Source: Dehalococcoidales bacterium
GTDB lineage: Bacteria > Chloroflexota > Dehalococcoidia > Dehalococcoidales > BS750m-G39
Length of the DNA: 34,684 nt
Reading direction: 5' to 3'
Assembly (NCBI GenBank): GCA_022865485.1
Contig: JALHSZ010000036.1
Location: forward strand, 1 to 34,684
Part shown: positions 26,269 to 31,799 of the stretch, piece after piece
Layout of the letters: every line of letters begins with the position of its first letter
Numbering within the stretch: the first letter of the stretch is position 1
The notes under the pieces: generated by a model
What the model was told of the DNA's origin: nothing
The model's database searches: none
The model's input: the letters and a program-made list of their open reading frames with translations, nothing else
Translations under genes and position numbers: made by a program

Positions 26269-27738
26269 CTAGCCCGGCACTTCCACTATCAGGGTCGTCC
26301 CCTTGCCTGGCGTCGTCTGCACCTCGAGCGTTCCGCCTAATAGTCTGGCTCTCTCCTGCATCCCCACCAGCCCCAGCTTGCCGATACGCGGCAGGTCGTC
26401 CACCCTCCCCGCCAGCTCGAAGCCCCGCCCGTTGTCGCTGATGGTCACCCTCACCCTGTCCTTGGTGAAGTCGATAATCACGCTGGCTTCCGAGGCCTGC
26501 GCGTGTCGCCGGATATTGTTCAGCGCCTCCTGGACGATGCGGAAAAGCGAAGACTCGAACTCGGGCGCAAAACGCTTCTCGTCGCCGAGCACCTCCAGCT
26601 TGCTGCCGATGCCGTCGTACTCCTGCAGGTCTTTCACCAGCGAACGCAGCGCGGGAATCAAGCCCAGGTCGTCGAGCAGCGAGGGGCGCAAATCCTGCAC
26701 GAAGCGGTGCACCCCCTGCACCCCCCGGTTGAGCTGCGCCTGCAAATCTTTTAAGAACAGGACCTCGTTGGGGGCCAGCCCCGACTTCTTGCGCACGAAG
26801 TTGTCCAGCTGCCGGGAGAGGGAGCCGAGGAGTTGGGCAGTATCATCGTGCAGCTCGCGGGCGATGCGCTTGCGCTCTTCTTCCTGCGCCCGGGTAATCT
26901 CCTGCAGGTAGTAGCGCAGGTTCTCCTGCATCCGCTTCTCCTGGGTGACGTCGCGGGCGATATTGTGAAAGCCCCTGGCTTCGCCGTCGCCGCTAATCAG
27001 GTTGGTGGAGACCATGCATATCGCCTCCGAGCCGTTCTTCTTTATCAGCCTCAGCTCGTAGGGCAACTCCACATAGAGGTTCTGCTCCAGCCTCCGCCCC
27101 ACCTCCCGCGCCAGGGCCAGGCTCTCCTCGCCCAGAAAAGACTTCACGTTCATCATCAGCAGCTCCTCCACCGGGTAGCCGCTCAAGGTAGCGGCGGCTT
27201 TATTGGCCGTCTGGATGTTGCCCTCGAGGTCGTGCGACCAGATGGCGTCGTAGGCCCCCTCGAACAAGGCCCGGAAGCTCTTCTCCGACTCGTGCAGCGA
27301 TTCCTCGGCGTGCTTGCGCTCGGTAATATCCTCCAGTGTCTCGATGGCGCCGATGATTTCCCCGTTGTTGTCCCGGATGGGGCTGGCGGTAAAGTGGAGC
27401 CACTTCCCCTCCTCCGCCATTTCGGGGAAAAAGTCCTCGGCTTCAAAGGCGCCCTCGATGAGGCTCGACTTTCCGTGTCGCCCCGGGTAATAGCCGGCAA
27501 TCTCGCTCAAGGGCGCGCCGTCCACGATTAAATCAGCCATGGCCGGCCTCTTCTCGGAATAGAACGGCCGCCACTGCTGGTCGGTGCCGATAACCTTGTC
27601 CCGCTTTATGCCCGAAAGCGCTTCGAGGGCGGTGTTCCAGTAGATGACGCGGTGCTGCTTATTGATAACGAAAGAGGGTATGGAAGAGCCGTCGATAATC
27701 TTGGCCAGCATCTCCGAACCCGGTAAACTTTGTGGCAT
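26269..27738 (-). CDS. Cytosolic histidine kinase with two PAS domains (NarX/DegS-type)
   Basis: The 489-residue sensor kinase has no transmembrane segment. PAS domains span about 10-140 (ending in the PAC-like ITERKHAEESL) and 153-268 (ending ITRAQEEERKR after a short coil). The HisKA_3 dimerisation domain carries the phosphoacceptor His297 in RIARELHDDTAQLL. The HATPase domain has the N box IVQEALNNIRRH (401-412), DNGRGF (435-440) and GLVGMQERARLLGG. It lies 19 nt downstream of its probable partner regulator. The signal must be intracellular (redox, gas or small molecule), but no heme or flavin ligand can be named from sequence. Confidence 0.94.
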   Translation of the reverse strand: MPQSLPGSEMLAKIIDGSSIPSFVINKQHRVIYWNTALEALSGIKRDKVIGTDQQWRPFYSEKRPAMADLIVDGAPLSEIAGYYPGRHGKSSLIEGAFEAEDFFPEMAEEGKWLHFTASPIRDNNGEIIGAIETLEDITERKHAEESLHESEKSFRALFEGAYDAIWSHDLEGNIQTANKAAATLSGYPVEELLMMNVKSFLGEESLALAREVGRRLEQNLYVELPYELRLIKKNGSEAICMVSTNLISGDGEARGFHNIARDVTQEKRMQENLRYYLQEITRAQEEERKRIARELHDDTAQLLGSLSRQLDNFVRKKSGLAPNEVLFLKDLQAQLNRGVQGVHRFVQDLRPSLLDDLGLIPALRSLVKDLQEYDGIGSKLEVLGDEKRFAPEFESSLFRIVQEALNNIRRHAQASEASVIIDFTKDRVRVTISDNGRGFELAGRVDDLPRIGKLGLVGMQERARLLGGTLEVQTTPGKGTTLIVEVPG

Positions 27739-27757: not shown

Positions 27758-28423
27758 TTAAGGCAGCTCTTCCAGGGTGAGCCAGCCCTTTCTCAGCCCG
27801 TAGAGCACGGCCTCGGTGCGGGAGCCGACCCCCAGCTTATTGAAGATAGTCCTCAGGTGCCCCTCGACGGTGCGGTTGCTCAGGTGCAGCTTATCGGCGA
27901 TGTCCTTGTTGGTCATCCCCCTGGCCGCCAGCTTGATGATGCCCGTCTCCCGCTCGCTGAGGTGCTCGGAGGACCTCTCCATCCCCTTCGCCTTGCCCGG
28001 TATGCGGAAATAGTTGACCACCTTGCGTGCCACCACCGGGTCGAGGACGGGCTCGCCCTTATAGACCGCCCGGATGGCGCGGGTCAGCTCGTCGCCGCTG
28101 ACGCTCTTTAGCAGATAACCGGCCGCCCCCGCTTTGAGCAGGGCGAAGACGTATTCGTCGTCGTCGTAGGCGCTCAAGATAAGCACGGCGATGCGGGGGT
28201 TATTCAGCTTTATCTGCCGCGTGGCTTCGATGCCGTTCAGCTTGGGCATGGCGATATCCATGATAATCACGTCGGGCTTCAGCTCGCCGGCCTTCTGTAC
28301 CGCCTCCTCCCCGTCACCCGCCTCCCACACCACCATTATCCCCTTCTCCGCTTCCAGCAGCCTGCGGATACCCTCCCGCGTGATGACATGGTCCTCGGCA
28401 AGAAGAACGCTGATAGTGCTCAT
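27758..28423 (-). CDS. NarL/LuxR family response regulator
   Basis: The 221-residue protein has a receiver domain with acidic residues Glu10 and Asp11, phosphoacceptor Asp56 in VIIMDIAMP, and the switch residues (LSAYDDD, then Lys in YLLKS). The C-terminal GerE/LuxR helix-turn-helix reads LSERETGIIKLAARGMTNKDIADKLHLSNRTVEGHLRTIFNKLGV. It is cotranscribed with the downstream HisKA_3 kinase. It is divergent from the NADH module at 28676 and may regulate it through the repeats at 28500-28528. Confidence 0.95.
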   Translation of the reverse strand: MSTISVLLAEDHVITREGIRRLLEAEKGIMVVWEAGDGEEAVQKAGELKPDVIIMDIAMPKLNGIEATRQIKLNNPRIAVLILSAYDDDEYVFALLKAGAAGYLLKSVSGDELTRAIRAVYKGEPVLDPVVARKVVNYFRIPGKAKGMERSSEHLSERETGIIKLAARGMTNKDIADKLHLSNRTVEGHLRTIFNKLGVGSRTEAVLYGLRKGWLTLEELP

Positions 28424-28499
28424 AAGGTTAATACCTCCGCTTAATCATAACAGAGCCCGCCATCCCCCTTCAAGCGTGAAGCAGCCAATATAAGGTGGA

Positions 28500-28528
28500 T
28501 AGGTATTATTACCTAAGTATTATCACCT
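28500..28528. promoter_or_regulatory. Palindrome plus direct repeat, possible response-regulator operator
   Basis: TAGGTA-TTAT-TACCTA (28500-28515) is a perfect 6-bp inverted repeat. The element TATTATTACCT (28504-28514) recurs as TATTATCACCT (28518-28528) with a 14-bp period. It lies in the 252-nt spacer between the response regulator and the NADH module. The rest of 28424-28675 shows no gene; GATAAGGAGGT at 28659-28669 holds the ribosome binding site of the first module gene. Confidence 0.45.
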
Positions 28529-28675
28529 GACATCCTCTATAGAGCCAGGGGAAACCCTGCTGGAAAACACCCGCCGAAAGGGGGCAAATACCGACGAAAA
28601 AACGGGCGTGATAACGGATGGAAACGGGCTTCAAGGCGAGTAACATAAAGCTAGAGTTGATAAGGAGGTCGCCTG

Positions 28676-29173
28676 ATGGAGGTTACACTCGATTTTAGCA
28701 AGGTCAAGGCTATCGTCGAAGACTATACGGAAAAGGTCGATTCCCTTATCGACAGCTACGCCGACAAGAAAGAGCAGATAATATCCCTGCTCCAGGATAT
28801 CCAGGCCGAATTCAACTATTTACCCCAGGACGTTCTGGTCAAAATCAGCCAGAAGCTGGATATCCCCTTGAGCCAGGTCTTCAGCGTCGCCACCTTCTTC
28901 CGCGCCTTCAGCCTCAAGCCCAGGGGCCGCCACCTGGTGACCGTCTGCCTGGGCACCGCCTGCCACGTCAAGGGCGGCCAGAGGCTGGTGGACAAGGTAT
29001 CAAGGGACTACGGCATCAAGCCCGGTGAAACCACCGAAGACATGAGGTTCACCCTGGAAACAGTCAACTGCCTGGGTTGCTGCGCCCTCGGCCCCGTGGT
29101 CGTTGTCGACGGCAAGTACCAGAGCAAGGTGACCTCGGATAAGCTCAACCGCGTCTTGAAGCAATACAAGTAA
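28676..29173 (+). CDS. NuoE/HymA-like [2Fe-2S] subunit of an NADH-linked complex
   Basis: The 165-residue product is a thioredoxin-like [2Fe-2S] protein. Its ligands are CLGTAC (Cys91, Cys96) and CLGCC (Cys132, Cys136), with the helical N-terminal domain (LLQDIQAEFNYLP) seen in NuoE, HymA and HndA. Such subunits relay electrons from the FMN subunit. ATG at 28676 follows AAGGAGGT. It is the first gene of a three-gene operon, 16 nt before the NuoF-like gene. The sequence alone does not say whether the final partner is a hydrogenase, formate dehydrogenase or another enzyme. Confidence 0.94.
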   Translation: MEVTLDFSKVKAIVEDYTEKVDSLIDSYADKKEQIISLLQDIQAEFNYLPQDVLVKISQKLDIPLSQVFSVATFFRAFSLKPRGRHLVTVCLGTACHVKGGQRLVDKVSRDYGIKPGETTEDMRFTLETVNCLGCCALGPVVVVDGKYQSKVTSDKLNRVLKQYK

Positions 29174-29189
29174 AGGCGAGAGGGATGAC

Positions 29190-31070
29190 ATGGTAGAGCA
29201 GGTCAGGAAACTACTGGAGAAAAAAGTGGAAAGCCCCGAAGGGCTGGAAAGCCTGCGCCAATCCATAGTGGCTAAAAGAGACCCCCAGCGCACCTGCATA
29301 TCGGTCTGCGGCGGCACCGCCTGCCGTGCCTCCGGTGCCGAGGCGGTGGTCGATGCCTTTCTGGATGAAATCGAAAGGCGCGAGCTCCAGGTGCAGGTGT
29401 CGCTCAAGGAAACAGGCTGCCACGGCTTCTGCGAAAGAGGCCCCCTGGTGGTCATCGAACCCAAGAAGATTTTCTACCAGCAGGTCAAGCCCGAGGACGT
29501 CGAGGAGATTATCGACGAGACCATCGTGGCGGGCAAAATCGTCGAGCGCCTGCTCTATACCGACCCGACGACCAGCGAAACCATCACCTACGAGCCCGAT
29601 GTCCCCTTCTACAAGAAGCAAACAAGGAATATCTTCGGCGCCAACGGCACGATTGACCCGACCAATATTGAAGACTATATCGCCAGCGGCGGCTACTCCG
29701 CCCTGACTAAAGTCCTTACCGGCATGAAGCCCCAACAGATTGTCGACGAGGTCAAGAAGTCGGGGCTGCGGGGCCGGGGCGGCGGCGGCTTCCCTACCGG
29801 TAGAAAATGGCAGTCCTGCCTTGAGGCTAAGGGCAAGGTCAAATACGTCATCTGCAACGCCGATGAGGGCGACCCTGGCGCCTACCAGGATAGAAGCCTG
29901 CTTGAAGGCAACCCCCACAGCATCCTGGAAGGCATGATTATCGGCGCCCGCGCCATCGGCTCCCACCAGGGCTACATCTACGTCCGCAACGAATACCCCC
30001 TGGCGGTAAGGCACGCCCGCATCGCCATAGAGCAGGCGATGGACTACGGGCTGCTGGGCAAGAATATTCTGGGCTCCGGCTTCGACTTCAACATAACCAT
30101 AAACAAGGGCGGCGGCGCCTTCGTCTGCGGCGAATCCAGCGCCCTCATGGCATCTCTGGAAGGCAAGGTGGGCGAACCCAAGGCAAAATACGTCCACATG
30201 GCGGAAAAAGGCCTCTGGGAACACCCCAGCCTGCTCAATAACGTCAAGACCTGGGCTAACGTCCCCCTGATAATAAACAAAGGCGCCGACTGGTACGCTA
30301 AAATCGGCACCGCGGGCAGCAAGGGCACGATGATATTCTCCCTGGTGGGCAATATCGTCAACACCGGGCTGGTCGAGGTGCCCATGGGGATAACCCTGCG
30401 CCAGATGATATTTGATATCGGCGGCGGCATCCCCGATGGCAAGAAGTTCAAGGCGGTGCAAACGGGCGGCCCCTCGGGCGGCTGTATCCCCGAAAAGTTC
30501 CTGGATACGCCCGTGGACTTCGACGAGCTGACCAAGCTCGGCTCGATGATGGGCTCGGGCGGCATGATCGTCATGGACGAAGACACCTGCATGGTCGACG
30601 TCGCCCGCTACTTTATCGAGTTCCTCAAGGGCGAGTCCTGCGGCAAGTGCACCCCCTGCCGCGAGGGCATCAACCGCATGAGCGAAATCTTAAGCAACAT
30701 TACCCAGGGCAAGGGCAAGCCCGAAGATTTGGATACCCTGGAAGACCTGTCTGAGGTCTTGAGCGCGGGCGCCCTCTGCGCGCTGGGCCAGACGGCGGCA
30801 AATCCGGTGTTAAGCACCATCCGCTACTTCAAGGACGAATATCTGGCCCATATAACCGATAAGAAATGCCCCGCGGGCGTCTGCCGCGAGCTAATTCGCC
30901 TCTCCATCGACCCCGAAAAGTGCGAAGGCTGCCTCAGGTGCCTCAGGGAATGCCCTACCGGGGCTGTCACTGGCGAGAAAAAGCAGGCACACACCATCAA
31001 CCAGGATATGTGTATCCACTGCGGCGCCTGCTATGACGTCTGCAAGTTCAACGCGGTAATAAAGCGGTAA
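29190..31070 (+). CDS. NuoF/HymB-like NADH-binding flavoprotein with extra Fe-S domains
   Basis: The 626-residue subunit would oxidise NADH (or reduce NAD+) at FMN. An N-terminal thioredoxin-like [2Fe-2S] domain has Cys40, Cys45, Cys77 and Cys81. The core has the NADH/FMN motifs GLRGRGGGGFPTGRKW and NADEGDPGAYQDR, an SLBB region, and the [4Fe-4S] site ESCGKCTPCREG with a later Cys in GALCALGQ. The C-terminus adds a 2[4Fe-4S] ferredoxin, CEGCLRCLRECP and CIHCGACYDVCK. This layout is that of HymB/HndC-type subunits of electron-bifurcating or NAD-linked hydrogenases and formate dehydrogenases, and not of respiratory NuoF, which lacks the extra domains. Confidence 0.95.
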   Translation: MVEQVRKLLEKKVESPEGLESLRQSIVAKRDPQRTCISVCGGTACRASGAEAVVDAFLDEIERRELQVQVSLKETGCHGFCERGPLVVIEPKKIFYQQVKPEDVEEIIDETIVAGKIVERLLYTDPTTSETITYEPDVPFYKKQTRNIFGANGTIDPTNIEDYIASGGYSALTKVLTGMKPQQIVDEVKKSGLRGRGGGGFPTGRKWQSCLEAKGKVKYVICNADEGDPGAYQDRSLLEGNPHSILEGMIIGARAIGSHQGYIYVRNEYPLAVRHARIAIEQAMDYGLLGKNILGSGFDFNITINKGGGAFVCGESSALMASLEGKVGEPKAKYVHMAEKGLWEHPSLLNNVKTWANVPLIINKGADWYAKIGTAGSKGTMIFSLVGNIVNTGLVEVPMGITLRQMIFDIGGGIPDGKKFKAVQTGGPSGGCIPEKFLDTPVDFDELTKLGSMMGSGGMIVMDEDTCMVDVARYFIEFLKGESCGKCTPCREGINRMSEILSNITQGKGKPEDLDTLEDLSEVLSAGALCALGQTAANPVLSTIRYFKDEYLAHITDKKCPAGVCRELIRLSIDPEKCEGCLRCLRECPTGAVTGEKKQAHTINQDMCIHCGACYDVCKFNAVIKR

Positions 31071-31082
31071 AAGGAGGTAGTT

Positions 31083-31799
31083 ATGGCCAAGGTATGGATT
31101 GACGGTAAGACTTCGATAGAGGTGGAACACGCCGAAGGCATCAATGTCGTCCACCTCACCGTAGACGATAAAGAGATTGCCGTATCGAACGGCAAGACAA
31201 TTCTGGAAGCGGTAGAGCGCGCCCCCGGCATCGGTAATATCCCCGCCCTCTGCCACCACCCCGCGGTCAAGCCCTACGGCGCCTGCCGCATCTGCACCGT
31301 CGAGGTCAGCGAGGACGGCGGCTCTAAGTTCAAGTTCGTCGCCGCCTGCCTCTACCCGGTCAAAGAGGGCTTGATAGTCAAGACCCAGACCGAAAAGATA
31401 AAGAAACTGCGCAAGGGCATAATCGAGCTGCTCTCGGCCCGCTGCCCCAACGTAAAAAGGATACAGGAGCTGGCTGACGAGTACGGCGTGGAGAAACCCA
31501 GCTTCGTCCTCGGCGACCAGGACTGCATCCTCTGCGGCCTGTGCGTCCGGGCCTGCCAGGAGATTATCGGCAAGTCGGCGATAAGCCTGGTCAACCGCGG
31601 AATTTATAAAGAGGTGGCGGCGCCCTTCTACGCCTACGAACTGAGCGGCGACTGCATCGGCTGCGGCGACTGCGCCTTCGTCTGCCCCACTGGCGCTATC
31701 GAGATGGGCGCCGACGGCAGACCCACCCTGCCCAAGGTCAAGATACCCTACGCCGAAATCGAAGCCATGATGAAAAAGGAGACGGTATCCCCCTCTTAA
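31083..31799 (+). CDS. HoxU/NuoG N-terminal-like iron-sulfur subunit
   Basis: The 238-residue electron-transfer subunit has a plant-type [2Fe-2S] site (Cys57, Cys68, Cys71, Cys89) and two [4Fe-4S] sites (Cys148, 151, 154, 158 and Cys191, 194, 197, 201). The additional His/Cys cluster found between them in NuoG and HoxU is missing: that region reads ELLSARCPNVKRIQEL with a single Cys. A strand-rich N-terminal stretch of about 25 residues precedes the ferredoxin domain. It corresponds to the iron-sulfur arm of HydA/HymC or FdhA but without any catalytic domain. It is the last gene before the terminator at 31824. Confidence 0.92.
   Translation: MAKVWIDGKTSIEVEHAEGINVVHLTVDDKEIAVSNGKTILEAVERAPGIGNIPALCHHPAVKPYGACRICTVEVSEDGGSKFKFVAACLYPVKEGLIVKTQTEKIKKLRKGIIELLSARCPNVKRIQELADEYGVEKPSFVLGDQDCILCGLCVRACQEIIGKSAISLVNRGIYKEVAAPFYAYELSGDCIGCGDCAFVCPTGAIEMGADGRPTLPKVKIPYAEIEAMMKKETVSPS

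Follow-up and report, generated by a model that had tools for sequence, protein, structure and literature searches.

The element at 28500-28529 of the window (the whole 34,684-nucleotide stretch of Dehalococcoidales DNA analysed here) is very probably the DNA site of the two-component regulator encoded next to it. From sequence comparisons we consider it likely that the element is a tandem operator of this NarL-type regulator, through which the regulator would control its own gene and activate an NADH module, complex I and acetyl-CoA synthesis. There are hints that a single switch acts on these three parts of energy metabolism. The conservation of the element, its fixed spacing, its recurrence before other operons and its absence from one genome that also lacks the regulator point to the regulator as the binder and suggest an activating sign.

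A two-component system faces an NADH module

The element lies in a 252-bp spacer (28424-28675) between a leftward regulator/kinase pair and the rightward genes NuoE-NuoF-HoxU (28676-31799). The features of the region are as follows.

26269-27738, minus strand: soluble PAS-PAS-HisKA_3-HATPase sensor kinase (HisKA_3 5e-9, HATPase_c 4e-14, two PAS stretches)
27758-28423, minus strand: NarL/LuxR-type response regulator with receiver and GerE domain (Pfam Response_reg 1e-29, GerE 1e-18)
28444-28449, minus strand: predicted regulator promoter -10, TATGAT, with extended TGT
28468-28473, minus strand: predicted regulator promoter -35, TTGAAG, 18-nt spacer
28500-28515, no strand: box 1, unit 1, near-palindrome TAGGTA-TTAT-TACCTA (TAGGTATTATTACCTA)
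28514-28529, no strand: box 1, unit 2, TAAGTATTATCACCTG, 14 bp downstream of unit 1 and in register
28597-28622, plus strand: box 2, AAAAAACGGGCGTGATAACGGATGGA, proposed activator site abutting or overlapping the NuoE -35; most conserved block of the spacer
28618-28623, plus strand: predicted NuoE promoter -35, weak, ATGGAA, 17-nt spacer
28641-28646, plus strand: predicted NuoE promoter -10, TAACAT; TANNNT at equal offset in 9 of 10 orthologues
28676-29173, plus strand: NuoE/HoxE-like 2Fe-2S subunit
29190-31070, plus strand: NuoF/HoxF-like NADH-binding subunit
31083-31799, plus strand: HoxU-like Fe-S subunit

The regulator carries receiver and GerE domain in one protein and has a HisKA_3/HATPase kinase as its neighbour. 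The parts are of a known kind, a NarL-type two-component system. The nearest solved relatives of such NarL/FixJ (LuxR-type) regulators with a HisKA_3 kinase are VraR, DevR and NarL, and the divergent target and the dyad or tandem sites upstream of promoters are likewise shared with NarL/FixJ systems. The kinase has a single cysteine and lacks a membrane segment, its highest 19-residue hydropathy being 0.84. The preliminary description of this DNA had credited the regulator with a NarL-type DNA-binding domain and the kinase with cytosolic PAS domains, and the profile matches and hydropathy bear out both.

Box 1 is a tandem of near-palindromes

The preliminary description had also reported a perfect dyad and a 14-bp direct repeat. 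The coordinates and sequence of the dyad stand but its perfection does not: the arms of TAGGTATTATTACCTA are TAGGTA and TACCTA, and 7 of the 8 pairs match, pair 7/10 being T/T. The recurrence of TATTATYACCT is real, with copies at 28504-28514 (TATTATTACCT) and 28518-28528 (TATTATCACCT) that have one difference between them, although the repeated unit is 11 bp long and 14 bp is its period. The lone dyad was rejected as the finding, since 33% of 1000 dinucleotide shuffles of the 252-bp spacer contain a dyad with 6-bp arms and a loop of at most 8; an 11-bp direct repeat occurs in 1.4% of them.

Searched with up to three mismatches, the repeat pair occurs at one place in the window's own genome and at none in the reversed control, and exact TAGGTRN4YACCTA occurs once across that genome. 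With one mismatch allowed, this palindrome has 39 places in five genomes against 27 in the control, so single palindromes of that level carry no weight. Similarly, GGCGTGATAACGGATGG at up to three mismatches gave 18 extra places in the five genomes with similar control counts, and six of the seven places examined lie inside coding frames.

The tandem is conserved in orthologous spacers

With NuoE as query we collected 49 loci in named genomes. The nine nearest (L032-L040) belong to Dehalococcoidia/Chloroflexi MAGs and are 73-89% identical by NuoE. In 156 genomes of the order, no locus other than these nine and the window reaches E 1e-68. The arrangement of leftward kinase and regulator, spacer and rightward NuoE-NuoF is found in all nine, and HoxU is present in the eight loci that are long enough, L032 ending before it. 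Two records (L033 and L035) are titled Deltaproteobacteria; both the regulator and NuoE there share 83-89% identity with the Dehalococcoidia proteins, and the records are probably mislabelled MAGs.

The tandem pattern is kept in five family-level spacers, the window included, for example as TGGGTATTACTACC.TAAGTTATATCACC and TAGGTATAATCACC.TGAGTTAAATCACC. A search with this pattern, which was drawn from these same sequences, finds one place per genome in all five family genomes and none with the reversed control. The spacing toward NuoE is identical in these five spacers: from the tandem it is 98 bp to TAACGG in the conserved box 2 block and 127 bp to the NuoE -10. In all five the centre of box 1 lies 64-70 nt from the regulator -10, and the regulator promoter is kept as TTGAA(G/C/T)-17/18-TATGAT. 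Conservation of the motif in relatives, which the preliminary description had named as a check, is thus found where the regulator is kept, at a fixed distance from the promoter of the NADH module.

In the second family (L036-L040) the tandem as such is not kept. Here GTATTACACCTG stands at -160/-161 from NuoE in L036, L037 and L040 and with one mismatch in L039; it was not found in the L038 spacer. The conserved copy in L037, L039 and L040 sits within a longer inverted repeat (GCGTATTACACCTG...CAGGTGTWTTTACGC in L039 and L040), unlike the 14-bp tandem of the window.

The same tandem precedes the nuoA and cooC operons

An exact palindrome lies 109 nt before nuoA in one family genome (G006), and in all five family genomes the tandem is found upstream of nuoA, 109 to 114 nt from it; in the window's own genome (G000:C45:17681) it reads AGCGTAAAAATACTTAAGTCAAAACC. 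The two sets of sites identify each other. A matrix built from the nuoA sites has its top match inside box 1 in four of the five spacers and its second in L034 (0-2 of 100 shuffles reach these scores), and a matrix built from the spacer sites has the nuoA site as its top match in all five (0-7 of 100 shuffles, the weakest, 7, in the window's own genome). The own-genome operon encodes nuoA, B, C, D, H, I, J, L, M and N with a 102-residue ORF in the K position; no NuoE, F or G was found among the ten ORFs scanned.

We then combined the ten spacer and nuoA sites, which score 21-24.5 bits, into one model and scanned six genomes. Eight places outside the training set were returned, of which four were examined. 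The best two, G000:C14:52960 in the own genome (13.9 bits) and G003:C36:15453 (13.5 bits), are orthologous, and both precede CooC (PDB 3kje, 5e-50) and formate-tetrahydrofolate ligase; two in G007 (C6 and C44) look unrelated. In the own genome these two genes open a Wood-Ljungdahl operon whose further products are FolD, AcsD, CODH, ACS, AcsC, one methyltransferase and a protein resembling MetF. Including those of G006 and G007, which were absent from the scan list and were found by reading the orthologous upstream regions, the cooC site lies at -167 to -169 in all four regulator-bearing genomes with cooC (0-1 of 100 shuffles), and it scores 12.2-24.3 bits with a matrix trained without any cooC site. 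No cooC was found in the fifth regulator-bearing genome (G009).

A further family member, G010, has no regulator match, and its NuoE is only 59% identical. The site is absent there at both nuoA and cooC despite the kept nuoA -35/-10 and a cooC that is 84% identical. Co-occurrence together with this one regulator-less genome, which is 86% complete, suggests that regulator and operator belong together. In two genomes of the second family, G083 and G101, neither cooC nor nuoA is preceded by the site.

These results change the circuit that the preliminary description had envisaged. A purely local circuit does not agree with the tandem before nuoA and cooC. Control of the NADH module keeps its footing in the fixed distance of the element from that promoter, but NuoE is more likely driven via the block at 28597-28622, which had gone unmentioned.

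Box 2 and the regulator family across the class

Within 28599-28622, 15-bp windows are fully conserved across four genera, a level reached by none of 5000 column permutations. Downstream of this block comes TANNNT, at a constant offset behind GATGG: 9 of the 10 orthologues have it, as do 12 of the 21 distant loci and 8 of the 9 newly found places, against a background of 1.9%.

The regulator as query has matches in 72 of 393 genomes of the class (E 1e-72). NuoE lies within 1.5 kb of the regulator in 15 of 30 loci (L086-L115); four of these are the window or its orthologues, and the other 11 NuoEs are 37-43% identical. Of the 26 distant regulators, 14 are preceded by the palindrome TAGGYRN4YRCCTA with at most two mismatches, a number that none of 300 shuffles reaches (shuffle mean 2.7), compared with 4 of 64 NuoE upstream regions that lack this regulator next door; the tally for the orthologues, 6 of 10, counts L036, whose match is away from box 1. 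The palindrome thus precedes the regulator family class-wide, even where the divergent genes differ, and its position is tied to the regulator start. L102 has a clean tandem, TAGGTGAAAATACC.TAGGTAAAAATGCC.TA. A class-wide search for the tandem with three mismatches stayed at background level (the reversed-pattern controls gave at least as many places, judged by eye), and the looser matches L218-L223 fall in coding or unrelated places. Within one mismatch this search returned the window and G039:C33 alone.

A box 2 matrix built from 25 of 30 distant upstream regions (the 26 plus L144 and L146-L148) has the window block as its best match (1 of 300 shuffles reaches it), and likewise that of L032-L035 (0-6 of 300). 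For L036-L040, the second family, it performs poorly (8-184 of 300). Over the 393 genomes the box 2 consensus has 127 places, including 13 exact ones, against about 45 in the controls (a hand count). Eight exact places lie outside the training set, mostly in genomes of one family, and hence are not independent. Of the seven examined, six stand immediately before genes that encode a small Cys-rich protein (PCWE..CP..I..ECP), and the seventh precedes an ORF followed by a Cys-rich gene, NuoE and NuoF.

These Cys-rich proteins of about 112 residues (PCWE...CP..I..ECP..KY.FLPCWEIEGTYCKL; L209-L217) are encoded behind box 2 promoters, in some cases as tandem copies, and elsewhere between regulator and NuoE; the two tested had no Pfam match. 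At L209-L214, L216 and L217, trans-regulated copies of one family, a hairpin-like repeat such as TGCGC-TTTT-GCGCA immediately precedes box 2.

A matrix of the orthologues' box 2 was not reliable in locating box 1 in these spacers (p 0.015-0.40, with the best matches often elsewhere). The boxes resemble each other loosely, and box 2 may be a second site of the protein that binds box 1. The recognition helix of the window type reads VEGHLR and that of most distant regulators VQ(A/T)H(L/M)(G/R), and box 2 differs in step. With Q in the helix (VQ.H), box 2 reaches at least 14 bits in 21 of 24 distant loci, and with E, as in the window, in 0 of 6, by a matrix trained on the same set and with phylogeny uncorrected. 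None of the 64 NuoE upstream regions without this regulator reaches 14 bits, many of them having a gene directly upstream; L048, for which the slice was wrong, falls just under the cut at 13.9. The paired differences look like a natural change of specificity. We take the E/Q position to be a base-contact residue; the literature searched gave no confirmation for the contact residues of NarL.

The closest regulator outside the order (73%; L145, G305:C1, regulator start 3242) has a spacer with a window-like box 2. There the first 22 or so NuoE codons remain and are followed by an acyl-CoA synthetase ORF; the operon seems to have been replaced, or the contig misassembled.

Other readings of the tandem

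The window's own genome holds a paralogous regulator at G000:C24 (L144), 65% identical, and in distant loci the palindrome keeps its position relative to the start of the regulator gene even though the divergent gene varies. Box 1 could accordingly serve the regulator promoter only, with box 2 alone driving NuoE and the paralogue reading the nuoA and cooC sites. We regard this as unlikely: box 1 is missing upstream of the paralogue itself, and the paralogue's recognition helix is VQVHLGN rather than VEGHLRT. The paralogous kinase has a hydrophobic N-terminus, and its first PAS segment is 68% identical to that of the soluble window kinase; the two may therefore sense the same kind of signal in different locations. 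The gene divergent from L144 is a TPR/Cys-rich ORF. In L239 (G006:C91:6000-9409) HoxU is closely followed by a second regulator pair, which carries TAGGCATTAATACCTA of its own as well as an element like box 2; opposite this pair lie a small membrane ORF and the gene for a protein similar to formate dehydrogenase beta.

A different regulator, such as a redox-sensing one-component protein of the Rex or CRP/FNR kind, might own a tandem that merely adjoins the two-component genes. An NADH module, complex I and the acetyl-CoA pathway would suit a global redox regulator, which could count the regulator gene among its targets. Such an owner is improbable given the palindrome before this regulator family throughout the class and the loss of the site in G010. 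Rex sites are of the type TTGTGAA-N4-TTCACAA, and the arms of box 1 differ by eye from these and from the Rex and CRP/FNR half-sites TTGTG, TTGAT and TGTGA. Box 1 is also not a NarL site as known from Escherichia coli, where TACYNMT heptamers are inverted in a 7-2-7 arrangement: by eye, TAC faces inward, the spacing is 4 bp and TACCTAA lacks the last T. TAGGTR-N4-YACCTA in a 14-bp tandem differs from the NarL heptamer pattern.

The placement of the site bears on its sign. From its centre to the -10 the distance is 57-58 at nuoA (5 of 5 genomes) and 56-57 at cooC (4 of 4), and at these and at the regulator promoter it lies wholly upstream of an intact -35/-10 at a fixed distance, the usual place of a class I-like activator site. 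Repressor sites are often found in divergent spacers and tandem sites suit oligomers, so the repeat might instead be an operator from which the regulator shuts both promoters; this placement and the poor -35 of NuoE make repression a poor prospect. A chance repeat in an AT-rich stretch, for which one could cite the commonness of the dyad by itself, is hardly credible when five spacers conserve the repeat at fixed spacing and it turns up again at orthologous promoters.

A model for the regulon

For the tandem operator of the adjacent regulator we propose the following scheme. The soluble PAS kinase would phosphorylate the regulator, which would then bind two copies of TAGGTR-N4-YACCTA set at a 14-bp step. 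Lying upstream of the -35, the bound tandem would activate the promoter of the regulator gene, at a distance some 7-13 bp greater than at nuoA and cooC. At NuoE-NuoF-HoxU, with its poor -35, regulator at box 2 (28597-28622) together with the distal tandem would activate transcription. In trans, regulator bound to a tandem whose centre lies about 69 nt ahead of the expected transcription start would aid polymerase at the complex I operon without NuoEFG and at cooC-fhs-folD-CODH/ACS-metF.

Discussion

In the Arc system the regulator, ArcA, is of the OmpR type and the kinase, ArcB, is membrane-bound, whereas the system described here pairs a NarL-type regulator with a soluble PAS kinase. ArcAB of E. 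coli is described as a two-component system that sets redox and energy operons globally, with a variable binding-site architecture (PMC3798270). A three-subunit NADH module alongside a complex I without E, F and G resembles the situation in Synechocystis, for which a HoxEFU diaphorase and an NDH-1 without NuoEFG are described (PMC9414918). Unlike there, no hydrogenase subunits come next in the operon, and the link is a shared operator rather than biochemistry. According to three further papers, Dehalococcoidia have an 11-subunit complex I without the NADH-input subunits NuoEFG (PMC6005880), the function of orphan NuoEF is called unclear (PMC3971608), and coupling of the 11-subunit complex to another one, encoded at a different place, is considered possible (PMC5736913). 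No report of this regulator, operator or regulon of complex I, NADH module and Wood-Ljungdahl pathway was found in the open-licence literature searched.

The own genome has several NuoE paralogues, and the shared operator ties one NuoEF-HoxU among them to complex I and the Wood-Ljungdahl operon. NuoEF-HoxU may thus be physiologically coupled to complex I, a claim that the shared operator makes testable and that bears on the electron source of the 11-subunit complex I of Dehalococcoidia. The sites also provide a usable binding-site model for a regulator family common in the class. More tentatively, and with doubt still outweighing belief, this one soluble PAS two-component system might act as master switch for the autotrophic energy metabolism of the Dehalococcoidia family studied here; its regulon would then mark NuoEF-HoxU as the detachable NADH-input module of a complex I that has none otherwise.
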